Of a stretch of DNA of 20,485 bases, positions 1 through 18,858 are shown in pieces. Both the position numbers and the translations under genes were made by a program. The stretch is from a virus. The stretch covers positions 1 to 20,485 of the IMG/VR virus record IMGVR_UViG_3300048800_000003. One strand, given 5' to 3'. A model generated the notes under the pieces. The model was not told where the DNA came from, searched no databases, and was given only the letters and a program-made list of their open reading frames with translations. The stretch's first letter is position 1; each line of letters opens with the position of its first letter.

Positions 1-2163
1 GAAAGATCCAGTTATTATTCTACTAGAAGGATCATTGAACTCAGCTAATTGAGTAGAATAATAGTTAGTTATAAGGTTATTATTAGTAACATTAGTTTGT
101 GGGTAGAATAGTTTAGATGTCTGACCCCAGTTTAAATCATATGTAGGTAGTTGTGGATCATCAAAGTGACCAGCATATGGGTACGAGTAAAAATCTTGTG
201 AGTCCTTAACGTCCTGTAATGTACCACTACCATTAGAATCAAATAACCATCTATCAGCATATGAACTACCAGCAACTGTATGTAAGAGACCAGGGGTTGT
301 ACAATTAGGACCCAATCCTACCTTCTTTAATATTCTTAAATTAAATCCTGCAATACCCGAACCAGTTGAATCCTGTGTTACTATCTTTGGTATAACAAAC
401 ATTGTTGATCCTTCTACTAATACAAGAGGTGTTGGTGAGAATATACTTTCTATTTTAGTATCATCATTACTAAATTGAGTATCAATAATAGATGTATATT
501 CACCGTAGTTTAATGGTGATTGAGCTTTGTAGAATGTATTCCAATAGTCAGTATCATCTTTATATCTAAAGTGAGTTGTTCTTGGTTGTGTTGTGGATAG
601 TATCTCACCTCCAATTGGATCAAACGAATCTATCTTAGAAGACCAATCTTCTATTACACCAGAAGCATAATAGACATCTCTAGGTTCAATATTTAATGTA
701 TTGTTCTGTGTCTTTGATGGTTCAATATATAAATTAAACATCTGTGTAATGGACTTAACAAAGTCCTTCTGTTTAATAGATATAGGTAGAACTTGATTGT
801 AGTCAAGTGGCTGACCATATGTTAAACTTGTATCAACTTGATTGAACATTGAAGTAGATCCAGTTGGTCCGTGTATATTTAATTGATAAGGAGACACACC
901 TACAGTCTCAACAACAAGCATAACTTGCTCACCATATCTAATTCCTTGAGATGGTGGTAATCCTGGATTATTATCCAATAAATCAAATGCTATTGATACT
1001 TTATAGTTACTCATTGAGGCATTAATAGGAGATCCTACAATACCTGAGTTGTGTAAATCAAATCCAAACCCACCACCACCATATTGTATTTCTCTCCAAC
1101 TAGATAATGATGGATTAACTGGAAGTGTTGGCCACCCTGAGAAGGTAACACCCAATTGAGATTGAGATCTGTATAATTTAATCTGAGTAGCAGTTATAGT
1201 ATTCTCTAAATCTATATCAAGATTAACATTAAATCTCTGTTGAAAGGGTTCAACTGTTAAATTAGTATAAACATTATTTATTATGTCAAATAAACCATTT
1301 GGATCACTATATGGGATCGTTATATTATTAAGAGCAACCTTATCAAAGTATGGTGTAAGCGGCACACCAGGGTGTCCTATTGATTGTGATTGAGACATAC
1401 CAACTGTGAATTGTTTGGTTAATGAATATGTAGGACTCTGAGCTAAGTTAGATCTATTGAAAGGTATAATCAGATCAGTAAATGGTTCTGAGTTAAGGAA
1501 ATTAGAATTATATTTATATCCAGCATCAGTAAAAATTTGATCGAATATTACCTTAACGTAAGTAGCAGGAAAGAAGTCATACCAGTTGGCAGCACAAGCA
1601 ATAGTATTAGCTCCTTGTAAGTCACCAATATTCCAATCACGACCATAATCTATTAAAGGATAGTAAAATCCATTTGTATAAGATTGTGTCCAGGAACCAG
1701 ATATAATAGATTGTGATCCATATATGTGGTTGAATCTACTTAGATTCATATCTGTTAGATACTTCTCACCCATTGATGTATAGAAGTCTCCAGTACCAGA
1801 ATATAGAATAATCTCATACTCATTAGCACCAGTATCTAGATTAACATCGAAGTGAATTACTTGTAGGTACCCTTCAAATACAACAATAGAATCACATAAC
1901 ACATAAGATTTTACCTTAAGGTTTGGGTTATAATAAGTGGCAGTTGATGCCATATTAGCAATATCTCCAAATATTAATCTATTATTTGATGTCTCCGGTA
2001 TTGTTATTGTTAATGATGAGGAGTTATTAGTAGTTGATATATCAATGATATCATTAATTTGATAGTTCAAAGGTATTGCAACTCCCAAAGTATCAACATT
2101 ATATGTTACGTTATTTATAACTACGAATAATTCTACACGAGCCTGAGGGCCTATTTGGTTTGC
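1..2163 (-). CDS. Large tail protein, probable distal-tail/baseplate component (3'-truncated by window edge)
   Basis: An ATG at 2163 opens a frame that I checked in triplets over most of its length and found open to base 1, giving at least 721 codons with no stop in the window; the C-terminus is therefore missing. It starts MANQIGPQARVELF and reads on through VVFEGYLQV and, about residues 45-60, a TITIPETSNNRLIFGD segment. This pattern, a strand-rich opening, an 'IPxTxxNxxIFG' motif and then a 'xxxGYLxV' strand, is what I know from large tail proteins of Bacteroidota phages, thought to sit at the distal tail or baseplate. It is rich in Ser, Thr, Asn, Gly and Tyr, with no signal peptide or transmembrane segment. 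It follows the 494-residue tail protein after about 10 bases, so the two are probably co-translated. The structural role is fairly sure, the exact position in the tail is inference. Confidence 0.7.
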
Positions 2164-2173
2164 CATTTATTAA

Positions 2174-3658
2174 TTAACTATTTTGTACTTGTATGTTATA
2201 TGCCGCTGTGAATGATATACTCAACGCGAATAAACCATCTAGTATTTGTGTCTTACAAACATAAGTACTATCATCGATAATGATAGGTAGGTATTGACCA
2301 TTGTTATCAACGGTGTATACCTCTTTGCTGTAAAATAATTCACGGAGCCAAAGTGATTCATTCTCAGTAATCCAATCAGTTGATATCTGATAGGATTGAC
2401 TCACCTTCTGTGATAAAATAGTATCTTGTCTCTGACCTACAGTATAGTTCCAGGGTAATATAGCCTTGAACTTAACTCTATCCGTTGTAAAAGTTTGTTG
2501 ACTTTTCATTACAAACGAATAATAATCAAATGCTCCCAATCTATTCAAGAAGGCCAATCTAAATTGTGGCCAAGGACTTCTATTACAAGGTACAATCCTG
2601 TAAATTCTATTCTCTGATAGAACATTACCATTAAAGTCTTGTAGCTGAACAAAATAGAAGTTAACTCCTGTTAGACTAATACCATATAATGATAAGTTAG
2701 CTGGTCCAATACCTAGATCCAATCTTGTATTGTTAGTACTTGCAAATGGATTACTAATAGTTGCTGTTCTTAAGAAGTTATAAGTATTAAAGTCTTGTGT
2801 ATTACCAGAATACATACTAATGACAGCTGTTGATACAGTTGCTACTGTTGCTGATCCTATAAATGATATTGTCTCATAGTCATTGATGAATACATTTTTA
2901 CTTGTATATGTATTAAATGCTGGTACAAGAGCTGAATATACTGGATTAAGATAATCAGTTAAGAATTTACTTGCCTGAGCAATCATTAAATAGGTATTAG
3001 AAGATCCAAAGTTATATCCTTGTTCTGTATATTGTCTCGTACCATTAAATGCCTGTAACACAATAAAGGACTTATCCATTCTATTCCGGTCTGTTATCAA
3101 TCCAGATTGTGTTATACCACTTGGAGTTAATCCCCAAGGTATTGTAGTTTGTATTGTATTGGTCCCAACAGAGATAACTGCGGCTGATCCAATATATTGT
3201 GGGTTATAAACTGTATTAAATAATGTAACATATATAATATCATTAGATAGTACTCCGTGACCTGTTTGTAGTCCAGATAGCTCAACGAAGTTACCAATGT
3301 TCAATACATTTGAAAATGTTAAAGAAGGATTGTAATCAAACCCATAATCAATTTTGTAATCAATCATTGAGTTAGGAGCATTAGCGAATCCAACCGTTGC
3401 TGGTTGAATATCATAACTCAATTGTGATTTAAGAATGGATGATGGATCAAATATACCATCACCAGCACTAGGATTAGGTGGTATAAGATATCTTGGTCCT
3501 AATTGAGTCTTAACTTGTGTAACCAAATCAACCTTATATACATCGAATGTATATTTGAAGTTAGATAGATTGTAAGATGTACTCGATAATTGGTACCAAA
3601 GAGGACCATTTACGGGTGATAGTTGGTTAGGTGTTGTAATTAAGTTTATTGTTGGCAT
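2174..3658 (-). CDS. Tail protein, 494 aa, probable distal tail component
   Basis: I read this as a virion tail protein. It opens with MPTINLITTPNQLSPVNGPL, followed by strand-rich sequence containing FKYTFDVYKVD (about residues 34-44) and a Pro/Gly turn before IFDPSSIL. A 'Pxx-lsPvn-Pl-y' opening with a following 'F-Y-xDVY' strand and 'G-FDPSxIL' is characteristic of tail proteins next to the large baseplate-like protein in Bacteroidota phages. The composition is beta-type, rich in Asn, Thr, Ser and Tyr, without membrane segments. Aromatic and basic residues are frequent around residues 355-400 (CNRSPWPQFRLAFLNRLGAF). It overlaps the 3' end of the preceding very small gene by 13 bases and is followed within 10 bases by the large tail gene, so these act as one translational unit. 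The exact function is unknown; a receptor-binding or baseplate hub role would be guesswork. Confidence 0.6.
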   Translation of the reverse strand: MPTINLITTPNQLSPVNGPLWYQLSSTSYNLSNFKYTFDVYKVDLVTQVKTQLGPRYLIPPNPSAGDGIFDPSSILKSQLSYDIQPATVGFANAPNSMIDYKIDYGFDYNPSLTFSNVLNIGNFVELSGLQTGHGVLSNDIIYVTLFNTVYNPQYIGSAAVISVGTNTIQTTIPWGLTPSGITQSGLITDRNRMDKSFIVLQAFNGTRQYTEQGYNFGSSNTYLMIAQASKFLTDYLNPVYSALVPAFNTYTSKNVFINDYETISFIGSATVATVSTAVISMYSGNTQDFNTYNFLRTATISNPFASTNNTRLDLGIGPANLSLYGISLTGVNFYFVQLQDFNGNVLSENRIYRIVPCNRSPWPQFRLAFLNRLGAFDYYSFVMKSQQTFTTDRVKFKAILPWNYTVGQRQDTILSQKVSQSYQISTDWITENESLWLRELFYSKEVYTVDNNGQYLPIIIDDSTYVCKTQILDGLFALSISFTAAYNIQVQNS

Positions 3659-3780
3659 TTGATTTCCTTATCTTTTATTTCATTAAATAATATAGGATAA
3701 TTAACTTTAATAAATTTTATAAACTTACTAATGTGTTCCTTATCAGATCCTCTTTCTTTACTTCTTGGTTTCCTACTCAT
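3646..3780 (-). CDS. Very small basic protein, 44 aa, function unknown
   Basis: The open frame extends up to 3840, but that longer start lies well inside the connector gene. I prefer the ATG at 3780, five bases after the connector's stop codon, giving 44 residues beginning MSRKPRSKERGSDKEH. The protein is strongly basic at the N-terminus and predicted helical (HISKFIKFIKVNYPILF), ending in KEIKCQQ. Its end overlaps the start of the 494-residue tail gene by 13 bases, the tight packing expected of a real phage gene. I do not recognise the family. It fills the only gap between connector and tail genes, which is a weak argument that it is translated; it could instead be a short spacer frame. Confidence 0.45.
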   Translation of the reverse strand: MSRKPRSKERGSDKEHISKFIKFIKVNYPILFNEIKDKEIKCQQ

Positions 3781-3785
3781 TGTGT

Positions 3786-4373
3786 TTATAAATTTATTGG
3801 AAATCCAGTTGGTCCACCGCAACAAGTTGAATTTGGCCATAGTCCCGGTTTTTTATAATTTGGAGACATTCTCTTACCATATGTAGTTCTTTTTGCTACA
3901 ATCTGTTCGATACCAATCTGTGTATAGTATTCTGGAAATGCATTAGGATCATTAATGATGTAAGTTCTAATTCTCTGATTATACCAATCACCTCTTTGTA
4001 ATGATCTTGATTTTAATGCTTGTATTCTTTTCTCACTTGAATTTGCGCTATTGATGATATCACCACCTGTTTTCTCCAGGACCCCTTTGTTAGTAAGGCG
4101 ATCGGCAATATCATCAATAGACTCATATACTGTGTAGTGTGCAAGGGCTGGTTGAATGAAGTTATTCAATAGAATAAGATATTGACCAGTTGTAGTACCA
4201 GTGTTTGTAATATCACTTAAAAATCTCTGATATAGTTGTTGACCAAGAATAGATTGAATATGAATATCCTGAGCTACAAGAATATTAGGTAGAATAAGAT
4301 TAGGATCCGTATTGGAATCTATTGTAGTATATTTAAATATATTCTGTACTGATATTAAATAAGTTGGGCTCAT
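3786..4373 (-). CDS. Head-tail connector (adaptor) protein, 195 aa
   Basis: This is likely the adaptor that docks under the portal and closes the head after DNA packaging. The first 70 residues are helical with the pattern IQSILGQQLYQRFLSDI (about residues 38-54), preceded by 'LPNILVAQDIHI'. The series 'aQ-xxIxxxLGxxLYxxl' is typical of gp6-like head-tail connectors in Bacteroidota phages. A second helical part (FIQPALAHYTVYESIDDIADR) follows, then a basic C-terminal half with a Cys-Cys-Gly-Gly turn near residue 184. Its ATG overlaps the portal's stop as ATGA (4373/4370), giving coupled translation with the very protein it should bind. Length of about 195 fits the family. The family assignment is by recognised pattern, without a search. 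Confidence 0.65.
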   Translation of the reverse strand: MSPTYLISVQNIFKYTTIDSNTDPNLILPNILVAQDIHIQSILGQQLYQRFLSDITNTGTTTGQYLILLNNFIQPALAHYTVYESIDDIADRLTNKGVLEKTGGDIINSANSSEKRIQALKSRSLQRGDWYNQRIRTYIINDPNAFPEYYTQIGIEQIVAKRTTYGKRMSPNYKKPGLWPNSTCCGGPTGFPINL

Positions 4374-5860
4374 ATTTCTTCATTGTTTTTTTCTTGATTG
4401 GTTATAAATTTCTCATATCTTTCTTTCTCCATCTCTAATCTAGCATCACTTTTCAATGTTTTGAATGCTACTCTTGATTGTTTAGAGACTTGTTTCTTAT
4501 CTTCACCTTTAACACCTTCAACTAAATACTTGGCCTCATCCTCAGAATATCCAGATGCCATAAATACAGCAATCTTTTGTTCAGGAGTAATAGTTGACTC
4601 AAGTACACCAAGAATATCCTTAATATCTACATCAACTTCAACATCTAATTCATATTGAGAGATAACAATCTTATCAGGAATACCATTTACTCTTGCTAAT
4701 CTATTAAATATCTTTTCAATGAACTCTTGTTTAGGGTTAATGTATTCTGCTTGTAATACTTTTAATGATTGTATCATTTCATTCTTAGAAGACAAGGCTC
4801 CTGGTGTAGGTATTCCCATAATAGAGGGACTAACTACTTGGTGAGCGCACATTATCTTAGAAACTATTTTATCTTCAGCTGTAAGATTTAATTCTCCATT
4901 CTGTTGTGCATCTAAAATATCTATTAGAGGTGCATTATCCTTATTATCAGCAAAGAATATCATTGGAGTACCAGCATTCTTACTACCTTGATATTGTGCA
5001 GCTAATCTAGACAATTCAAAATCAATTTCCTCATCAGAAATATTTCCTGAATCAAGGAAAGTAATTGTCATTTGTGGTGAGAACCCATTTTTAATATTAT
5101 TCTTTCTAAAATTACCAATTAGATAATCAGATTCAATATCATCAGCCGCTGAAATGTATGCAGGGTTACCATAGAAATATACATCACCTCTATGTTCTTT
5201 AACATAAAGTATTTGACTAGGTTTCTTTCTATCGATTACAGAAAATTCAGAATATACTACTGGTTTATTTTCTTCCTTACGAATATTTCTCCAATCTTTA
5301 GAGATTGCATATTCATATTTTCCTTCTGGTGTTTCACCTTCTGGAGCAACTATTCTTAATGTTCTTGGGTTAATATAATTTATTTCTGATATTATTGTTC
5401 TATCTTTATTCCAAATAATATTTAATGCAATTGCTGAATAAACTTCCAAGTCTAATGATATTTTCTTTAATATTTCTTCTAAATCATCCTCGTTATAAGG
5501 ATTAGCAATGAATCTTAATGCCTCATTAGATAATCCATTTAGTGCAAATCCATTACCACCAATATACATTGCTTTATTATTTACAATTGCATAGTGTGTA
5601 GAGCTGGATGTTAATAAGGATAAAAGATAATTTGGATATTGATTATCATCTCCAAAGGAAACAATATTCAGTTGCTTATTTATTCTCTCACTATATTGTG
5701 GAAGATCAGCTGCAGCAAATGAATGATAATATTCATCAACTGGTGCGTATGTATATTCACCTTCGACCTTTATATAGGTTTCTGTTTTACTTTTAGTACT
5801 ATCATCCTTATCATCAAATGACATTCTTCTAATTCTTATTGGTTTCTTATTCTCTTCCAT
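4370..5860 (-). CDS. Portal protein, 496 aa
   Basis: This is the dodecameric vertex protein through which terminase pumps DNA and to which the connector and tail attach. After an acidic/basic N-terminal tail of about 55 residues comes FGDDNQYPNYLLSLLTSSST (about 69-88), then YAIVNNKAMYIGGNGF. This 'GxxNxxPxyl... s...a.i.n.k..yi.G.Gf' pattern is the N-terminal signature of portals in Bacteroidota phages. A clip/stem region follows (ISEINYINPRTLRIV; YFYGNPAYISAADDIESDY near 235-253), then helical C-terminal sequence, ending in a charged stretch with Lys and Glu (KSDARLEMEKERYEKF). Length fits the usual 450-550. It lies after the capsid gene rather than before the protease, which is an unusual position. 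It overlaps the connector start by four bases. Confidence 0.8.
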   Translation of the reverse strand: MEENKKPIRIRRMSFDDKDDSTKSKTETYIKVEGEYTYAPVDEYYHSFAAADLPQYSERINKQLNIVSFGDDNQYPNYLLSLLTSSSTHYAIVNNKAMYIGGNGFALNGLSNEALRFIANPYNEDDLEEILKKISLDLEVYSAIALNIIWNKDRTIISEINYINPRTLRIVAPEGETPEGKYEYAISKDWRNIRKEENKPVVYSEFSVIDRKKPSQILYVKEHRGDVYFYGNPAYISAADDIESDYLIGNFRKNNIKNGFSPQMTITFLDSGNISDEEIDFELSRLAAQYQGSKNAGTPMIFFADNKDNAPLIDILDAQQNGELNLTAEDKIVSKIMCAHQVVSPSIMGIPTPGALSSKNEMIQSLKVLQAEYINPKQEFIEKIFNRLARVNGIPDKIVISQYELDVEVDVDIKDILGVLESTITPEQKIAVFMASGYSEDEAKYLVEGVKGEDKKQVSKQSRVAFKTLKSDARLEMEKERYEKFITNQEKNNEEI

Positions 5861-9030: not shown

Positions 9031-9702
9031 TCACTTGATAGATTTAATGAAAGCATTTATTTCTTCCTCTGTCATATCCTGTATGTATTCATCCATTGAT
9101 TTTGGTTTCATATCAATGATTTCTTTTATAGATGAGAAAGCCGGTAACTCAGACATTAGACCCTCGATAGAGAATCCATATTGCTCTTTACCCACAACAT
9201 CTTCATCCCAGAACTTCTTACCTTCTTTTGTGTTCTCTACTTGAACAATCGTGAACCAAGTTCCCACTGGTAGATCCTTGAACCCATATGATCTAGCATC
9301 CGTAAATGTAGAATCAGTTACAAGAAATTGTTGTGCAATAAATGCTGGTGCCATCTGTGTTCCGTGAGCTACGTTAATAGATTTATTATTATTATCTTTG
9401 TTGAATTTATTAATCATTTTATTAATAGTATCAGCTGAGAATACAACATTGTATTTATTACCATCATCATCCTTACGAACGATCTTAAGACCTGGAACCA
9501 TTGCAGGTCCAGCTATTATCATTTTCTTTTCATCTACTTTGAATTTAAGATCTCTCTCCTTCATTTCACTGAATAAGTTTCCTTTAATAAGGATTGCTGG
9601 ATCAGCAACTAGTGATAATAGTTTAATACCAGTAGTATCGTTATCATTTATAATGATTTCGAAAAGGGGTAGCTCAGCATCTTTGTAAACTTTTTTACTC
9701 AT
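9031..9702 (-). CDS. Prohead maturation protease, XkdF-like serine protease
   Basis: This enzyme likely cleaves scaffold and capsid N-termini inside the procapsid. The candidate catalytic residues are His113 in NVAHGTQ and Ser178 in YGFSIEGL; this is the His...Ser layout of XkdF and other phage prohead proteases, where Ser lies in 'GFSxxG'. Between them, DLPVGTWFTIVQVE (143-156) matches the 'P-GtW' strand before the active Ser. A third residue is uncertain. The N-terminal 100 residues are mixed, and the C-terminus ends in Asp/Glu-rich helix (PKSMDEYIQDMTEEEINAF). Length of 223 aa fits the family. The gene is upstream of the scaffold-like and capsid genes, as expected. A short A-rich leader precedes the ATG. 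Confidence 0.7.
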   Translation of the reverse strand: MSKKVYKDAELPLFEIIINDNDTTGIKLLSLVADPAILIKGNLFSEMKERDLKFKVDEKKMIIAGPAMVPGLKIVRKDDDGNKYNVVFSADTINKMINKFNKDNNNKSINVAHGTQMAPAFIAQQFLVTDSTFTDARSYGFKDLPVGTWFTIVQVENTKEGKKFWDEDVVGKEQYGFSIEGLMSELPAFSSIKEIIDMKPKSMDEYIQDMTEEEINAFIKSIK

Positions 9703-9716
9703 AACTTTATTTATTT

Positions 9717-11855
9717 TTAATGTGTCGAATATGATTCTACCACTTTTACTCTTTTTTGTGTTTTATTAATATCTTGTACGCTAACAACGGATGTTCCTGG
9801 GGCACCTGGTACAGTTGGTGTAGTTGATCCTAGTCCAAATACTTGTGGAGCTGATAGATTAGATCCACTTGAACTACTCATAGCAGCATTAATACCTGAT
9901 GTATTTGGGGGTGTTGGGGGTGAACCACCACCATCAAATGTAGTTGATGATATCTTTGCAATTGCAGCGGCAGAAGCAACAGCAGCAGCTATACCAGCAG
10001 CTATACCAACAGGGAAAAATGGTGCAGTAGCTAATGCATTTACTTCAGCTTCTATACCTGATATGATAGCACTTGACATCTTCATTTTCTTATCAACCTC
10101 AAAAGCTTTCTTCTTTATAGCTAAGTCCTTATTATAAGTCTGTAACTTAATTTGGTATTCAGCCATTGCATACTTTTCTTGTATTGATTTCTTTTGAGCA
10201 GAAGTAAGACCAGCAACATTTAACTCAGCGGCTTGAGCAGAGTTCATTGAATCTAATCTAGATTGTTGTGCTTGGTCAAAACTTTTTAACTCAGCAGCTT
10301 GTTGATCAGCTTTAATTGACATTAGATTAGTAAATATACTTTCAGCTTGGTTGGCAAAACCCTCTACCGCTGCTATTTGTTTGTGTAATAAATCAATAGA
10401 ATTTTGAGAATCTGTTTCGTTAGCATCTTTAACTTGGTCAGCACCATCTGATTTAATCTTAACAATACCCTTAGTTGTATTTTCAGTTTCCTTAGTAATA
10501 AGATCATTATAGAAGGCTGCTACAGCTACATCATCATCTCCATTTTCTTTGGCAAACTTAACAGCAGTATCTCTATCAGTCATTAACTTATCAATCTTTG
10601 ATTTAGATACTCTATTTAAAGAATCAACTTCTATTTGTGTCTTATCATTAATTTGCTTTATTGTATCTTCATTAAGTTTCTTTAATATAGCACCTTCTTC
10701 AAATACATTCTTCTCTCTTTTTAATAATCTTTGGTCTTCCTTTATTATTTGAGCATCTTGTCTCTTTTTCTCAGCGTCTGCATTCTTCTCTTCTAAATTA
10801 TTAACCATTACCGCATCTTGTACAGCCTTTTCTGATAGTTTTATCCTTTCAGCATCTATTTTTTCTTGTTCAGCTATCCATTTATCAGCATCTTTTTGAC
10901 CTTGTAACCATAATTTATCTTGATCCTGTTTAATTTTATCATCCTTTTTATTATATTTATCAATTATCTCTCTTCTTTTCTCTTGATACTCATCATCTTT
11001 AGCTAATTGTAAATTAGTTTGTGCTTTATATTCTTCGGCATTTGCTGCGTGTTCTTTAGATATACTAAGTTTTTCTTGTTTATGAGCAACCTCTGCTTGT
11101 TTTAATTCTTTAGCCATACCAGCCGCCATTGCATTTGCTTGTGCTGTTTCAGCTTCTAAATTCATTTGCTCAACATTCTTATTAGAATCTTGTTTTCTCT
11201 TCTCTAAATCTTCTGTGAATCCTTCATCTAATTTCTTTATTTCTTCTTTGGCTTTCTTATATGTTTCTAATTGTTCTTTAGTAAAACTATCATTAACAGC
11301 CTTCTCTTTAGCAGAACCCTTTTTAGCAGTTGATAAATAATCAGCCACAGCATCTTCGTGCTCTTTTGTAATCATCATTAACTGAGTTCTCTTATCAATA
11401 AATGCTTGTTTTTCCAATTCTTTTGTAGATTTACCTTGTAATTCATACATTTTCTTTTGGTGTTGGTACTCCTCATCTATCTTAGCTATCTCTTCATCTC
11501 TATGTTCTACAAATTTCTTTGAGGCTTCTTCATCAGCCTTCTTCATAGCACCAATAGCAACAACTACACCAGCAATTGCAGCAGCTAATAAGAATAATGG
11601 ATTATCTAATAGTTCATTTTTGATTGCCACTAAACCACCATTGAATAACTTTAGAGCAGCGTGACCTAATCTAAGTGCTTCTGTAGTTTGTCCGATAGCT
11701 TCACCCATCTTTTCAAAACCTTCACCACCCATTTTACCAATTGCTTTGGATGTTTCACCAAGTTCACGCATAGTCTTTCTAAAGTCACCAGCTTTTAGGG
11801 TTGCATTTACGGTGTCTAACGTTACGGGTATATTAATTGGATCCTGATCTGCCAT
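9717..11855 (-). CDS. Tape measure protein, 712 aa
   Basis: It probably sets tail length and is ejected with the DNA. Two hydrophobic segments flank a long charged coil: LFLLAAAIAGVVVAIGAM (about 87-104) and, near 609-637, a stretch starting ATAPFFPVGIAAGIAAAVAS. The middle (about 105-600) is Lys/Glu/Asp/Ala-rich with few Pro, as in tape measure coils. A Gly/Pro/Ser-rich tail follows, ending in basic KTQKRVKVVESY. The 'AAAIAKISS-x-FDGGG' ending is typical of tape measures in Bacteroidota phages. At about 1.5 angstroms per residue the length would suggest a tail near 105 nm. It is short compared with many phages and sits before the head genes instead of after the tail chaperone, which is odd. 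It follows the tail completion gene after one base. Confidence 0.75.
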   Translation of the reverse strand: MADQDPINIPVTLDTVNATLKAGDFRKTMRELGETSKAIGKMGGEGFEKMGEAIGQTTEALRLGHAALKLFNGGLVAIKNELLDNPLFLLAAAIAGVVVAIGAMKKADEEASKKFVEHRDEEIAKIDEEYQHQKKMYELQGKSTKELEKQAFIDKRTQLMMITKEHEDAVADYLSTAKKGSAKEKAVNDSFTKEQLETYKKAKEEIKKLDEGFTEDLEKRKQDSNKNVEQMNLEAETAQANAMAAGMAKELKQAEVAHKQEKLSISKEHAANAEEYKAQTNLQLAKDDEYQEKRREIIDKYNKKDDKIKQDQDKLWLQGQKDADKWIAEQEKIDAERIKLSEKAVQDAVMVNNLEEKNADAEKKRQDAQIIKEDQRLLKREKNVFEEGAILKKLNEDTIKQINDKTQIEVDSLNRVSKSKIDKLMTDRDTAVKFAKENGDDDVAVAAFYNDLITKETENTTKGIVKIKSDGADQVKDANETDSQNSIDLLHKQIAAVEGFANQAESIFTNLMSIKADQQAAELKSFDQAQQSRLDSMNSAQAAELNVAGLTSAQKKSIQEKYAMAEYQIKLQTYNKDLAIKKKAFEVDKKMKMSSAIISGIEAEVNALATAPFFPVGIAAGIAAAVASAAAIAKISSTTFDGGGSPPTPPNTSGINAAMSSSSGSNLSAPQVFGLGSTTPTVPGAPGTSVVSVQDINKTQKRVKVVESYSTH

Positions 11856-11856
11856 T

Positions 11857-12336
11857 TTATCTCATTGATTTATTTATATCTGCTACAACACCATTCATTA
11901 GTATTGATACATCTTCTCTTGCTGCTACCTTTAGTATGTCAGCCTTAGTAGACATAATAATATTGATAGTATTTTCTATAACATTAGTAGGTCTAATACC
12001 ATTTTCTTTAATAGATCTAGCTATTACAAAAGCTGTCTGATCTTCTGTTGCATTTTGCATTGTTATTCCTCTTTGACCAACCCATTCTTTAATTGCTCCT
12101 ATATTAGGATATTTACCTGGTGCTCTTCCTTCATCAACGAACTTTAAATAGTATGCGGCTTTAACATCTAATAATAATCCCTTAACATCTTCTAATACTT
12201 CAAATGATAATGAGTTAATTAGATTACCTGAAGCATCTTTACCCGCAGACATTAATTGATTTGCTAATTCCGCAGTAAATTCTGATCCTAATAGATTAAG
12301 AGCCTCTTTTAAATTATCCCATTTTACTTCAGCCAT
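11857..12336 (-). CDS. HK97 gp10-like tail completion / head-tail joining protein, 159 aa
   Basis: Typical features of the HK97 gp10 family can be seen: GNLINSLSFEV (about residues 37-47), then YYLKFVDEGRAPGKYP (62-77) and IKEWVGQRGI (about 81-90), followed by AFVIARSIKENGIRPTNVI. The 'xxYVDEGRxPGxxP' and 'I..WI..rGI' segments are the family's hallmark. In the virion it helps to finish the head-proximal end of the tail. The start at 12336 overlaps the stop of the ATP-grasp gene as TAATG, so the two are translationally coupled. The C-terminal helices are ordinary. Confidence in the family is good, but the exact position in the virion is inference. Confidence 0.75.
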   Translation of the reverse strand: MAEVKWDNLKEALNLLGSEFTAELANQLMSAGKDASGNLINSLSFEVLEDVKGLLLDVKAAYYLKFVDEGRAPGKYPNIGAIKEWVGQRGITMQNATEDQTAFVIARSIKENGIRPTNVIENTINIIMSTKADILKVAAREDVSILMNGVVADINKSMR

Positions 12337-13637
12337 TAGAATTTAATATTTAATTGTGTCTCCACATTTTGTAGAGTATCTGTTGCTGTTTTCAATGCAT
12401 CTTTATCAAATTTAATCTCATAAGGTGATTGAATACTTGCAGCAATTGTTAATGCTTGGCTCATAATAGAATCTAAATCATCACCAACTACTACAACACT
12501 ACCGAACTCGGTCATTTCAAATCCCGTGTGTCTAAATGGTATTATCCAATACTTATTATCCTTATATAAGGATCCTTTTAGTTTAATATTGTCTTTATAT
12601 TCATCTGGAAATGTTAATGGTAACCATCCAGCTTTCGTTCTTTCTGACTTTAATATGATTTCAACACCATATTTAGATCTGAAAATAGGTTCTACTATTT
12701 CACCATTAGCTCCACCAGATATAATCTTATCCCAATTACTAACCATCATCATATAAGTATTTGATGGAGGACTTCCAGCTCTCATACAAGGGTCCGTGTA
12801 ATAATTTTTACCATCTTCACCAACTCTTACTTCAGTGGAATAGAATCCTGTGTGATTATATTTAGTTAATATTGGTTTAAATCTATTTTGAACCTCTAAT
12901 AATGGTTTTGGTAGTTCTGATGTCTTACAAGTCTTACCTATATAGCCACAATTCTTAACTTCAATACCCCATATTTGATTCTGTGGGTGTATTCCATTAA
13001 CCGTCCATCCATCAGTTCCTAATTCAGCAACAGATTTAATAGGATCTTCGATAACGAATTCTATTTCGTCTTCTAACGGACCTAAATTATATTTCAAATC
13101 ATCTAATAATTGGTGTGATAGATCATAATTATCCCAATGATCTGTTTCCATTTCACCTCGATAGTATGTTACTTTAATCCACTTATCCTCCTTATCTTTC
13201 AGAAAGTCTAAGAGATTATTCACTCCAGTAATGTATTTAGATGGAGCAATATCCATCCCTATATCCATTAATTCTTGTTTGAATAATTTTCTTTCAGTTT
13301 CTAGTATCTCAGATATACCACCGCCCCAAATTTCTTTACCCATCTGCTTTAACATATATCCCCAATCAGAGAAATATATATCAGCAAATACAATTAGATC
13401 AATGTCCTTTAGATATGATCCTAATTCATTGATTACTATAATATTTTCATATCCTTTACCAATAAATTCCAATTCCATATGTGGAAAAGGATTATTACTA
13501 AATGAATAGAAATATGTTTTCTTATAATATTTGGATAGCTCTTGTGCTATTGGGAAATAGGCCCCACCAATGTTGTCAATGACACAAATAGTTTGATCAC
13601 TTTTTTCTTTATCGAATTTCTTCCAGGTTAATTTCAT
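12336..13637 (-). CDS. PurD-like ATP-grasp enzyme embedded in the structural operon, 433 aa
   Basis: This looks like an ATP-grasp ligase with the domain order of GAR synthetase (PurD). An N-terminal alpha/beta part (15-110) includes DLIVFADIYFSDWG and IWGGGISEILETERKLFK (103-120), the stretch that opens an ATP-grasp domain. The ATP-binding strand with Lys155 (WIKVTYYRGE) is followed by IEFVIEDP (192-199) and by YNHTGFYSTEVRVGEDGKNY, which parallels PurD's 'YTGFLYAGL' strand. TDPCMRAGSP (281-290) replaces PurD's 'EFNCRFGDP'; the metal ligands Glu and Asn would become Asp282 and Cys284, so catalysis may be altered. The end (FGSVVVVGDDLDSIMSQAL, 378-396) resembles the PurD C-terminal domain. The substrate is unknown: purine precursors are unlikely here, and a peptide or protein ligation role in virion assembly is possible. 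Neighbours are a 75-aa unknown and the gp10-like gene, with TAATG coupling. Confidence 0.7.
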   Translation of the reverse strand: MKLTWKKFDKEKSDQTICVIDNIGGAYFPIAQELSKYYKKTYFYSFSNNPFPHMELEFIGKGYENIIVINELGSYLKDIDLIVFADIYFSDWGYMLKQMGKEIWGGGISEILETERKLFKQELMDIGMDIAPSKYITGVNNLLDFLKDKEDKWIKVTYYRGEMETDHWDNYDLSHQLLDDLKYNLGPLEDEIEFVIEDPIKSVAELGTDGWTVNGIHPQNQIWGIEVKNCGYIGKTCKTSELPKPLLEVQNRFKPILTKYNHTGFYSTEVRVGEDGKNYYTDPCMRAGSPPSNTYMMMVSNWDKIISGGANGEIVEPIFRSKYGVEIILKSERTKAGWLPLTFPDEYKDNIKLKGSLYKDNKYWIIPFRHTGFEMTEFGSVVVVGDDLDSIMSQALTIAASIQSPYEIKFDKDALKTATDTLQNVETQLNIKF

Positions 13638-13651
13638 TTCTTATTTATATT

Positions 13652-13879
13652 TTATGAGTTATAGTGAGTATTTACATAATCTAATGCTGCTTGTTGAACA
13701 GCTGCTTGTACATCACCTACCGACATTGATGAATTGAATGGTATATTGATATCTCTATATTGAAAAAAACCAAAGGTATCACCTTCTATACCAACCATAA
13801 TTGATGAATTTTGATTAAATGATCCATCGTGATTATCTGTTATTGTTCCATAAGTTATTCCTGTTAATATGTAATTCAT
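13652..13879 (-). CDS. Small protein, 75 aa, function unknown
   Basis: I do not recognise the family. The sequence begins MNYILTGITYGTITDN, then Ser/Asn/Gly-rich strands (SSIMVGIEGDTFGFFQYRD) and a helical end with SVGDVQAAVQQAALDYVN. It may be a small beta-alpha structural protein. Its position between the collagen-like fusion gene and the ATP-grasp gene, with short gaps on both sides, makes it the nearest partner or substrate candidate for the enzyme. Yet it lacks the acidic/Ser/Thr repeats known from graspetide precursors. It contains a run of seven T at 13763-13769 that does not lead to a longer frame. Confidence 0.45.
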   Translation of the reverse strand: MNYILTGITYGTITDNHDGSFNQNSSIMVGIEGDTFGFFQYRDINIPFNSSMSVGDVQAAVQQAALDYVNTHYNS

Positions 13880-13895
13880 ATATGTTATTTATTTT

Positions 13896-16802
13896 TTAAT
13901 TTATAAAATACCAATTGAAAGTAGATGTATCCAAAGCATTAGTAGATGCTATTGAGAATCCAACTGAAGCTGTTTTAGCTGTTATATATAATGATCCAAT
14001 ATTAACACCACCTCCAGTATCCTGTAAAAATATTAAAGAATTTACTGATATACCTGTGGTATTTATAGATGCAACACCACTAACTAATGATCCAGTTCCA
14101 GCTGATGGCGCGGAACCAGTAGTTCCAATATTAAATTTTGCACCACTTGGAATACCTAATCCAACTTGACCTAATTGTATATTAGATCCATCATTCCACA
14201 TATCTCCACTATTAGGTGCTGATGGAGTACCACCTGATAACATTCTTCCTATTCTAAATGACGCATTAGCAGATGTTGCACCAACTACGTTTAAGAACGC
14301 AGTAGAGGGCCCATTATTTGCATCATTACCAGCACCACCAAAAGTTGTATGTGAATTTGATAATAAAATAGTATATGGGGATGCGTTACTAAGAGTATTA
14401 TTTAACATTGTAAAATTATTACCATTTAATCCCAAATACCATATTTGTGATGTTCCATTCCACCATTCAATAAGATTGATAGAACCACCTGTATTAGGAG
14501 ATAATACTAATCTACTACCTGTACTATTAGCAGCTCTACCACCAATACTTACATAACTTGCGTTACCAGAAAGACCTATTGTAAAATTACCAACCGTTTG
14601 TGTATTATTATTATTTGATTCATTTAAAACAATACTACCAATTGATATAGTTCCTTTGTTGGTATTATTTGTAGATGATATTGTAAGAGCACCACCTGAT
14701 GCGGTAGATCCATATATATGGTTATCAAGTATTACAACGGGTCCAAATGAAGATGTTGATCCAGCAGATATTGATGATGATAATATCGTTCCCATTACAG
14801 ATGCACTCGCAACTTGTAATCCAATTCCACTAACATTTAAATGTGTACCATCAATTATGACTCGAGTAACGTTATTAGTTTTAAATGATAAATTTTGATT
14901 ATCACTAGATCCAATACTAACAGTAGAACCTAATATATTACCATTTTGAAGTATGGCTGTTCCTGGATATAATATCCACTTTGTTCCATTCCATAGATAT
15001 GTAGTTAATGTAGTTGTTACAAATACGGTATTATTAAGAGTAGGTGCGGTATATGACCAAGAAGCACCTCCTCCTTGATATTGAGCGATATTATTAGATG
15101 CGGTTGACCAGGATCCAGTACCAGGACTTAGTATTAAATATCTATCACCTATTGATGGTGTTGGGCCAGGAGGAGCTGATTGATAATTTATAACTGGTTG
15201 TAATTCTACTGAGCCAGTACCAACAACAGCTGAGCTAACTGCCCAATATCCATTACCATTATTATCTGATGATGTAAATACATATCCGGTTGATGCTGCT
15301 GCGTTGACTTGTAAATTAGGAACAGACATTGTAGTTCCATTAAAGGTAAAATTAGAGGATGCAACTATTGAATTAGGACCATTCCAATACGCAACTGAAT
15401 TAGTTAAACCACCACTCATAGATGCTGCAATAAATTGACCATAGTTTACTGCATCAAGAGCATTTGAACCAGTTGCTAATGTAGTAATCTTATTATTATT
15501 CATATTAATAGAATATGTACCAGAACTATTACTAATAGCTAATGATGATGCTAGTCCTAAAGTAGGGCCTGTTGCTCCTGTAACACCTTGAATCCCCTGT
15601 GGGCCAGTAGCACCAGTGATTCCTTGGATACCTTGTGAACCTGTAGCACCAGTTGCTCCTGTAGCACCGGTAACTCCCTGAATACCTTGTGAACCTGTAG
15701 CACCAGTTGCACCATTCTGACCATTAACACCTATTGGACCTTGTGATCCAGTTGCCCCTGTGGCACCTTGAATACCTTGTGGTCCACTCATACTAGCTGC
15801 GATTAATTGTGAATAATTCACAGCATCTAATGGATTAGATCCAGTAGCAACGTTAATGATCTTATGAAAGACACCATTACCACCCTTCATATCAATAACA
15901 CCACCAAATGATGATGTAGGTGATTGGAATGTTATAAGCTTTGTACTAGATAAACCAATTTTATTCTGTGTAATAGTAATAAAGTTATTAGGAGAAGTTA
16001 AATCAATTGTACCAAACCCACTAGAAGAATTACTAGTATCAATGTTAATATAACCAACACTAGATGCATCAGCCCAGGAATTATTACCAGGACCCAGTGC
16101 AATTGATGTTTGAATTGTGGGATCAGTTATATAAGAACCTGTACCTAATATAATTGGTTGTGATCCTGAATCATTACTTACTAATAAAACTTGTGCAAGA
16201 CCTTCTGTTGATTGTGTTCCAGCAGGACCTGTTGGACCTAAACCACCTGCAGGACCTGTTGAACCAGCTGGGCCGTAATATCTAAATTGTGATAGATCTA
16301 TACCACCACCAAACGATGGGTAACCTGGAATAGGAAGAATAGGAGAGTTACAACTATTATAATTCATCGGAACTTCAAAAGAAATATCTGCCATCCATCC
16401 GTTCGCATTATCCACAGTTGATTCAAATACTCTATTAGCTGAAAAGCTTTTAGGTATGCATATATTTTGGTCGATATAGAATTGATTGTCTGTGATTTCA
16501 CCGATTATGGTGGACATAATGTAATCTGTTTGAGACATTGTCTCTACATAGTTAGCATCACCCTTATCAATCTTGTCTAATATATAGAACTTAAAGTTAT
16601 ATATCATTGACTTAACACCTTGAGCGCCACTAACATATTCTTTTTTACCAACTTCTACTGCGAAGTATGGATACTTAGCTGCAGAATTGGAAGCAAAGTC
16701 CCATTTAGGTGAGAAGTAATAGTTACCACCAATCATTAAATGCCTTACAGCAATGGATTGAAATACCTTATCGAAGTTTGAAATTGTTGATTGATTAACC
16801 AT
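13896..16802 (-). CDS. Tail-completion-like N-terminus fused to collagen-like tail fibre, 968 aa
   Basis: The first 150 residues are not fibre-like. They run [20 protein letters not shown], then [16 protein letters not shown] and end [19 protein letters not shown] (133-151); this 'YPy.aVEv' and 'GWmadIsf..P.nynsC' pattern is what I know from stand-alone tail completion or terminator proteins of Bacteroidota phages. After 176 comes a short collagen-like stretch (177-195), then a longer one (about 338-413, Gly-X-Y with GATGATG, GPIGVNG, GIQGVTG). A repeated linker occurs twice. About 534-610 ([26 protein letters not shown]) resembles DUF2793 of tail fibres. The last 75 residues match the beta-type fibre end 'G.gsLvsG..[11 protein letters not shown].IfL' closing with [11 protein letters not shown]. 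Start overlaps the preceding stop (TAATG). A fibre anchored at the tail's upper end is inferred. Confidence 0.7.
15412..15491 (-). repeat. Duplicated fibre linker motif, copy 2
   Basis: [20 protein letters not shown] followed by IAASMSG, matching copy 1 at about 19 of 26 residues. It precedes a non-collagen fibre segment ([10 protein letters not shown]) rather than a collagen stretch. Confidence 0.8.
15564..15789 (-). repeat. Collagen-like Gly-X-Y repeat region (long)
   Basis: About 75 residues of Gly-X-Y with Gly-Ala-Thr, Gly-Ile-Gln, Gly-Pro-Gln and Gly-Pro-Ile units, coded by nearly repeated 9-base DNA words such as CCTGTAGCACCA. Such stretches form trimeric rods in phage fibres. Repeated DNA of this kind can change in length through slippage or recombination. 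Confidence 0.8.
15784..15863 (-). repeat. Duplicated fibre linker motif, copy 1
   Basis: The residues [19 protein letters not shown] followed by IAASMSG are repeated as copy 2 at 15412-15491, 124 codons further on. 'KI.n(v/l)A.Gsn..DAVNy.Q' is a common connector in phage tail fibres. Both copies are followed by Gly-rich sequence. The DNA differs by third-position changes, so the duplication is old or under purifying selection. Confidence 0.8.
16218..16274 (-). repeat. Collagen-like Gly-X-Y repeat (short, next to the N-terminal domain)
   Basis: Residues 177-195 read [11 protein letters not shown] then LGPTGPAG, with one break after GPAGG. It directly follows the 'SQFRYY' linker after the N-terminal domain, so it would start a trimeric rod right at the virion attachment point. 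Confidence 0.75.
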
Positions 16803-17673: not shown

Positions 17674-18858
17674 TTAAAACTTAAATGTTCGTATTTGTGT
17701 TCTTTTAGGATTATATGCTTTATTACTTACCTTATGAGAATGTATTGCATATCTTGTAGCATCCAATATATCATCCCAAAGCTTTACTGGTTCATCTAAT
17801 ACTCTTTGACCATCCATTTTCCAGCTATATAATCTATATTCTTTTAATAAATTAATTGAATTAACCTCTACAAATATCTCAGCGGACTTAACACTATCTA
17901 TTCCTTCTTTAACAGACTTATTAGAAGAGTAAGCATTTAATCCAGTGGTCTTTAGTTGAGCTATAATATCTGGTCTGGCACTATCACAATAGATTGGTTT
18001 GTTATCTGATATTAGTTCCCTTATCTTAGTACATAAATCATTAACGGTGATTTGATTCTCATATAATAGTTCTTCTATATAAACTTTATTATCAATAAAA
18101 GTTGTTTTAACTAACCCAGAGTGGTGATTATAACCAAAGTCTAACCCATAACACCAATCACTTGATGTGACTTTATCAGAGAATAGTTTAAAATGATTGT
18201 ATATTCTAGATCTAGCTATTGGTCTCTCACCTAAAGCATATATCTTATAATAATTTTCATCTGTATTAATCAACCCTTCTATCTCATCTATTTGATTCTG
18301 TCCTAAAAAGGTATTATCTTTATAAGTAGATTTGATTAGGATCGATTTGGGTTGTTTTATTATTTCATAGATGAAATGCTCAGTGTCGGATGGATTGAAG
18401 TCAAGGAAGATAGTCCCTGTTGTTCTGAGAGCTAATTGAATGTATTCATCATAGCTAATTTCATTAGCCTCATTGATATAGAGTATGTCCCTTTTCTTAC
18501 CTCTAAGGTTTTGTCCATCAATAGTTGCTAAGAACTTAACCTGAGAGCCATTATCAAACTCATAAATATTCTGAGTCATATTATGTTTAGTCTCTTTATA
18601 TAGATTTAATTCTTTAATTATCTCAAAGAAGTCACCCATAGATGAGTCTCGTAGTGATGGTAGAGTCTTTCTAACTATTGTTATATATATACCAGGTTGT
18701 TTAAAACAAAGATATACCATCAATTGTAGTAGTGACCAGGTCTTTGATGATCTTGAACCACCTTGATTAAGTATATATCGATTGCCTGCTTCATAAGCCG
18801 CTAAATTATCATCAAAGATGGGAGTAACTTTAAAGTGTAGTTCATTCTTCGGAATCAT
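17674..18858 (-). CDS. terL: Terminase large subunit (ATPase and nuclease), 394 aa
   Basis: This is the packaging motor and DNA-cutting enzyme, bound to portal and small terminase. The N-terminal ATPase has a Walker A, GGSRSSKTWS (33-42), with Lys39, and a Walker B, RDILYINEANE (123-133), with catalytic Glu130. FLDFNPS (151-157) is the coupling motif. The C-terminal RNase H-like nuclease shows Asp240 in YGLDFGYNHH, Asp292 in IYCDSARPDI and Asp363/Asp366 in WDDILDATRYAIHS. All key residues are present, so it looks active. The 'GGSRSSKT' form and 'LDFGYNH' resemble the PBSX-like terminase group. Length 394 is in the normal range. Its start overlaps the end of the small terminase gene by 17 bases. 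Confidence 0.93.
   Translation of the reverse strand: MIPKNELHFKVTPIFDDNLAAYEAGNRYILNQGGSRSSKTWSLLQLMVYLCFKQPGIYITIVRKTLPSLRDSSMGDFFEIIKELNLYKETKHNMTQNIYEFDNGSQVKFLATIDGQNLRGKKRDILYINEANEISYDEYIQLALRTTGTIFLDFNPSDTEHFIYEIIKQPKSILIKSTYKDNTFLGQNQIDEIEGLINTDENYYKIYALGERPIARSRIYNHFKLFSDKVTSSDWCYGLDFGYNHHSGLVKTTFIDNKVYIEELLYENQITVNDLCTKIRELISDNKPIYCDSARPDIIAQLKTTGLNAYSSNKSVKEGIDSVKSAEIFVEVNSINLLKEYRLYSWKMDGQRVLDEPVKLWDDILDATRYAIHSHKVSNKAYNPKRTQIRTFKF

Follow-up and report, generated by a model that had tools for sequence, protein, structure and literature searches.

Our analysis of a virus record of 20,485 bases (hereafter the window, meaning the whole stretch of DNA analysed; end repeats are absent from it) revealed a PurD-like gene that belongs to a real and broad phage branch of the PurD-type ATP-grasp enzymes, one whose active site is altered and which is apparently undescribed. 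Roughly 180 phage loci encode relatives of this protein, which we refer to below as the ligase and assign to family A. The features of the window that bear on its identity and setting are the following:

4370..5860, minus strand: portal protein
9031..9702, minus strand: XkdF-like phage protease (PF14550)
9717..11855, minus strand: tail tape measure-like protein (phrog_9483)
11857..12336, minus strand: gp10-like (putative head-tail/neck) protein, 159 aa, cluster c10
12334..12338, minus strand: TAATG stop/start overlap leading from the ligase to the 159-aa gp10-like ORF (sequence)
12336..13637, minus strand: PurD-like ATP-grasp protein of family A, 433 aa (ORF, model and fold search, relatives)
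13652..13879, minus strand: ORF of 75 aa immediately upstream of the ligase, without assignment
13896..16802, minus strand: 968-aa protein with a clade-wide N-terminal domain (cluster c5) followed by collagen-like Gly-X-Y repeats
17674..18858, minus strand: terminase large subunit

A PurD-like ligase in a virion gene module

The ligase ORF has exactly the extent given in the original prediction (12336-13637, 433 codons, with an ATG start). It is read from the minus strand; stops abound on the opposite strand over this interval. Its proposed TAATG coupling to the gp10-like gene is present in the sequence, and its placement within a structural and packaging module likewise holds. Its strand also encodes the large terminase subunit, the portal, the XkdF-like protease and the tape-measure protein. 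For the 159-aa neighbour, identity with HK97 gp10 was not confirmed: it matched only PHROGs of unknown function, and Pfam returned no family above cut-off for it. In the 968-aa protein of the virion module (13896-16802), the collagen-like Gly-X-Y runs are long.

Since the single window sequence gave no meaningful match in Pfam, PHROGs, NCBIfam or PDB sequences, the ATP-grasp assignment rests on its relatives. The first five of these came from searches of viral contigs, and a DNA pattern for YxxDPCxRxGSPP then yielded 95 stretches, almost every one with a gene for a relative. An AlphaFold model of the window ligase built from 76 aligned sequences reached a pLDDT of 94.5 and a pTM of 0.92 (the pLDDT was 46.5 when two sequences only were supplied). 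In a Foldseek search of the PDB with this model, the best 15 matches were GAR synthetases, all 15 of them (E 5e-22). VIA-align superimposed the model on human GAR synthetase over 378 residues (Z 30.4, rmsd 3.5); the next families, PurK and PurT, gave Z = 23, and values for PurK, PurT and biotin carboxylase spanned 21-23. RimK-type ATP-grasp proteins were not among the 50 structural matches listed, although a family missing from such a list is not thereby excluded. The BFVD viral structure library contained no full-length relative of the ligase (best TM 0.45).

Profile comparisons pointed to the same family. The NCBIfam purD model (TIGR00877) matched 27 of 76 family members with a best E of only 3e-8, and the window ligase by itself gave no match; bacterial PurDs score 480-630 bits, over a curated cut-off of 288 bits. 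Profile searches of PDB sequences ranked PurD first, and a global profile-profile alignment (hhalign) of family A with 19 bacterial PurDs, from which one over-long PurD row was left out, was collinear over the whole protein (E 9e-8). Because of these fold matches, the purD and PDB profile matches and the full-length global alignment, we regard homology of the ligase to PurD as established. The structure prediction that had been proposed for this gene returned an ATP-grasp fold, with GAR synthetases ranked first, and the predicted fold type is supported.

Active-site residues of family A

Five segments of the ligase stand out in its alignments with relatives and PurD:

13290..13301, minus strand: ETER, residues 113-116; E113 and R116 invariant, R116 at the Lys of PurD LEGSK
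13143..13175, minus strand: KVTYYRGEMET, residues 155-165; K155 and the R-G-[DE]-x-E-[TS] motif
13044..13061, minus strand: EFVIED, residues 193-198, aligned to PurD VVIEEF
12825..12851, minus strand: TGFYSTEVR, residues 263-271, the 'YTGF' strand; E269 invariant, Gly in PurD
12765..12803, minus strand: YYTDPCMRAGSPP, residues 279-291, the remodelled metal site D282/C284/R286, on PurD EFNxRFGDPE

K155 occupies the position of the second ATP-grasp lysine, and the R-G-[DE]-x-E-[TS] motif stands in place of the PurD GLAAGKG loop. In the profile alignment to 19 bacterial PurDs, D282-P283-C284 is aligned with E-F-N, as had been surmised from the window sequence. Further along, RFGDPE has become RAGSPP in family A, and the GPNTGGMG loop is deleted. 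The alignment indicates that the two acidic metal-ligand positions on the C-terminal strands are kept (E269 and D282 are invariant); the Asn that commonly, though not in every ATP-grasp enzyme, provides the third metal ligand (E-x-N) is absent from the EFN position of the ligase relatives.

Because the 95 loci had been found with the DPC motif itself, we drew a second sample by the independent motif VK-x4-RGDMETF, which gave 73 loci in which the 3' motif was not selected for. In this sample, E269, D282, R286 and N301 were each conserved in 69/69 sequences, and E226, K228 and D209 each in 72/72, and the position of the EFN Asn was filled by Cys (54), Thr (12), Met (2) or Leu (1) in 69 sequences. 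Invariance of DPC as a family rule was accordingly rejected as an artefact of the motif search, given that Cys and Thr vary in the independent sample. Residues inside the RGDMETF motif were scored only in the DPC-pattern sample, where K155 was found in 86/86, R160 in 86/87 and E164 in 86/86 sequences.

At one locus (L016), an intein-like insert interrupts the PurD-like gene (1801-4149, residues ~154-513 of a 783-aa ORF). The insert carries a LAGLIDADG domain (PF14528, E 2.5e-7), has Cys as its first residue, ends in SGN before a Ser, and splits RGD from xET between residues 162 and 163. Inteins habitually sit at essential sites. The residue conservation in both samples, together with the insert within the L016 motif, argues for a working enzyme.

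The original prediction had left a choice between a new substrate and a lost activity. As the active-site residues are near-invariant in 73 relatives unselected for DPC, we favour the new substrate over the lost activity on sequence grounds. That the substrate would be other than that of PurD is argued by the loss of GPNTGGMG and RFGDPE and by the gain of the Arg, of RG[DE]xET and of E269. Judged by these residues, the window protein is not a GAR synthetase, and ordinary purine nucleotide supply, which had also been considered for it, is unlikely, since the substrate signatures of GAR synthetase are gone.

Descent, distribution and gene partners

A tree of 71 proteins recovered family A as one clade (100/100) and bacterial PurD as another (100/100). 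Between them falls family B, further PurD-like proteins of phages that surfaced from a viral-contig scan for the small protein c4 (described below) and that forms a single group with support of only 70/64. Both E-x-T-x-RxG and a GPNTGxxG loop are retained in family B, and the Arg of LE-x-x-R is common to A and B. The tree is midpoint-rooted with long branches, which leaves the direction of change formally open; the simple reading of the sequences would be that family A is derived from PurD. Plain tblastn with one family B protein (L233) retrieved purD-annotated genes and, as the sole phage match, MW202796.1 (39% identity over 99%). MW202796.1 is a deposited complete circular phage genome, in which the PurD-like frame, a 435-codon open frame of family B at 42140-43444 (L283, 6001-7305), carries no annotation.

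Four different family A queries found nothing in 50,697 deposited phage records. A scan of genome contigs found one family A locus, in Bradyrhizobium sp. YR681, and the contig with the ligase gene is also listed as viral in IMG/VR (L068). Plasmids gave no match for this Bradyrhizobium member, and samples of 398 genomes of its phylum and 392 of its family returned only YR681 again.

We compared gene neighbourhoods at 125 non-identical loci. The original prediction had raised the gp10-like gene as a possible constant companion; it was found downstream of the ligase in 10 of the 104 loci whose sequence extends far enough on that side, and those gp10-paired loci that were placed in the tree all fall in the window's clade. 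A general tie between ligase and gp10 was rejected on these counts.

A SpeD-like gene is present at 53 loci, mostly directly upstream of the ligase and with a 4-base overlap in 13. Against PF02675 (cut-off 25 bits), its product scored 56.2 bits at L051 and 32.5 bits at L023, with others weaker, and it matches PDB 2iii. In Thermotoga maritima numbering, the pyruvoyl-forming Ser63 and the catalytic Cys83 are each present in 53/53 proteins. Position 68 is His in 6/53 and Asp in 46/53; because His68 is missing in 47/53, the protein's own activity is uncertain from sequence. The gene is limited to one large part of the ligase tree, the window's clade being without it, and a PF02675 search of 31 records, window included and fragments as they are, found no SpeD-like gene. 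A reverse search by the SpeD-like motif returned five more stretches, of which four have an adjoining PurD-like gene; the fifth comes from elsewhere on the L008 contig, and that contig carries one too.

The second partner, c4, is an HExxE protein of about 125 aa with the pattern HELxE...EPGxxxxAPYxxxH...E (L166-L282; e.g., L006:929-1285). H-E-x-x-E, D, EPG, APY, H and E are invariant among the matches listed; the search pattern contained EPG, APY and H, and HE, E, D and the last E lay outside it. No PDB match was obtained for c4, and its PHROG and Pfam matches were weak only. Among the c4 matches listed, 59 of 113 loci carry a PurD-like gene, on the same strand in 59/59 and mostly overlapping or adjacent, and 54 of 113 are without a detected PurD-like gene. 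Several c4 loci without the ligase adjoin terminase genes.

Other neighbours were seen at individual loci. A ~390-aa membrane protein (cluster c12), with a likeness by eye to the O-antigen ligase type, is encoded a few genes upstream of the ligase at L012, L014, L022, L030, L093, L096 and L100. At L046, L076 and L092, relatives of the window's clade, a small HAD-like protein adjoins the ligase, the one at L046 giving a weak match to the 5'-nucleotidase family PF06189. A radical SAM protein (PF04055, E 1e-12) lies at the edge of the L006 stretch analysed (11743-12538), and the same virus also has c4, SpeD-like and PurD-like genes.

Proposed function and likeness to known systems

We propose, with moderate confidence, that the window gene encodes an active ATP-grasp ligase of PurD descent, re-tooled in phages to serve a small biosynthetic pathway as its carboxylate-amine ligase. 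The enzyme probably joins two small molecules. By analogy with the ATP-grasp superfamily, ATP would convert a carboxylate to an acyl phosphate, which an amine would attack to form an amide; E269 and D282 would be the metal ligands, and Cys or Thr would stand in for the classical Asn. Partner enzymes might supply the amine or a precursor of it, possibly the SpeD-like protein where present. The product would most likely be a small amide or conjugated amine, perhaps used late in infection, because terminase, portal and tail genes surround the ligase and its partners. A phage pathway in which an amine is first produced and then conjugated is plausible, since some SpeD homologues of phages act as ornithine or arginine decarboxylases (PMC9992855, PMC10407285). 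The term 'ATP-grasp' is absent from both of these texts, and the literature searched contained no description of an ATP-grasp/SpeD phage cassette. For the window phage, neither a c4 nor a SpeD-like partner was found within the 20 kb, and the SpeD-like gene cannot alone explain the window gene, being absent from the window's clade and record; most records are fragments. Tentatively, we suggest that the PurD-derived ligase and the HExxE protein (with the SpeD-like protein in one part of the family) could form an undescribed late biosynthetic system whose product, an amide-linked amine such as a polyamine conjugate, would be required in packaging or assembly.

A ligase that modifies a virion protein during assembly by adding an amino acid or an amine, with the gp10-like neighbour as one possible target, is an unlikely alternative to this carboxylate-amine ligase of small molecules. 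Protein-modifying ATP-grasp enzymes exist (RimK, tubulin ligases and graspetide ligases), and the ligase lies in a structural module, TAATG-coupled to a gp10-like gene in a pairing kept in ten loci. However, virion marking and the gp10 link find no support beyond one clade, the downstream neighbour varies across the family, a recurring short precursor peptide was not noticed beside the ligase, and the nearest folds are small-molecule enzymes, namely PurD followed by PurK and PurT.

We give a still lower probability to a catalytically dead protein with a structural or regulatory role in the virion. Although loss of the metal-ligand Asn and the location among virion genes would fit such a role, family members are only about 30% identical, yet many of their polar residues are near-invariant, and no convincing match to a virion-protein PHROG was obtained. 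Also improbable, and slightly more so, is a DNA or nucleotide modification in which a decarboxylase-made amine would be ligated to a modified base: relatives do pair the ATP-grasp protein with a decarboxylase-like partner, in late, packaging-adjacent genes, but a non-systematic look noticed no base-modification genes beside the ligase, and the literature search gave no match. Least probable of all is an auxiliary metabolic PurD raising host purine synthesis, for which the full-length PurD fold, the PurD descent and the counting of phosphoribosylamine-glycine ligase as virus-enriched in an ocean survey (PMC11360552) speak, but against which stand the changes in family A (RFGDPE to RAGSPP, EFN to D-x-C/T, GPNTGGMG lost), the fact that no further purine genes were noticed in the window, and the Bradyrhizobium sp. 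YR681 genome, which has a PurD of its own (541 bits) in addition to the relative.

The ligase defines an enzyme family that is large, occurs in uncultivated phages and had not been labelled before; its conserved active-site residues and recurrent partners make the question of its substrate testable. Viral 'purD' genes counted as purine auxiliary genes in surveys may include these enzymes, above all those of family B (cf. PMC11360552). The original prediction could name no described equivalent, and none was found in the libraries and papers searched.

Among known systems, PurD (TIGR00877) is like family A in its full-length fold and in the collinear order of its ATP-grasp elements, with LE..[KR], VK, IEEF, TGF..dG and the E/D-x-x-x-R metal strand in common. 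In contrast to PurD, family A has Arg for Lys in LE-x-x-K, RG[DE]xET for GLAAGKG, an extra Glu (E269), D-x-C/T for E-F-N and RAGSPP for RFGDPE, and the GPNTGGMG loop is absent. Family B (L233, L246 and MW202796.1 42140-43444) resembles family A in being phage-borne, in the Arg of LE-x-x-R and in having the same c4 partner, but differs from it in retaining the GPNTGxxG loop of PurD and the Glu of E-x-T-x-RxG, and in its place between PurD and A in the tree. PurK and PurT share the ATP-grasp core with family A (Z about 23), a match clearly weaker than that of PurD. The SpeD-like partner is comparable to SpeD/AdoMet decarboxylase and its ODC/ADC derivatives, some of them phage-borne (PMC9992855, PMC10407285), in its PF02675 likeness and its Ser and Cys, but differs from SpeD in the Asp that replaces His68 in 46/53 and in its gene-order coupling to a PurD-like ligase.
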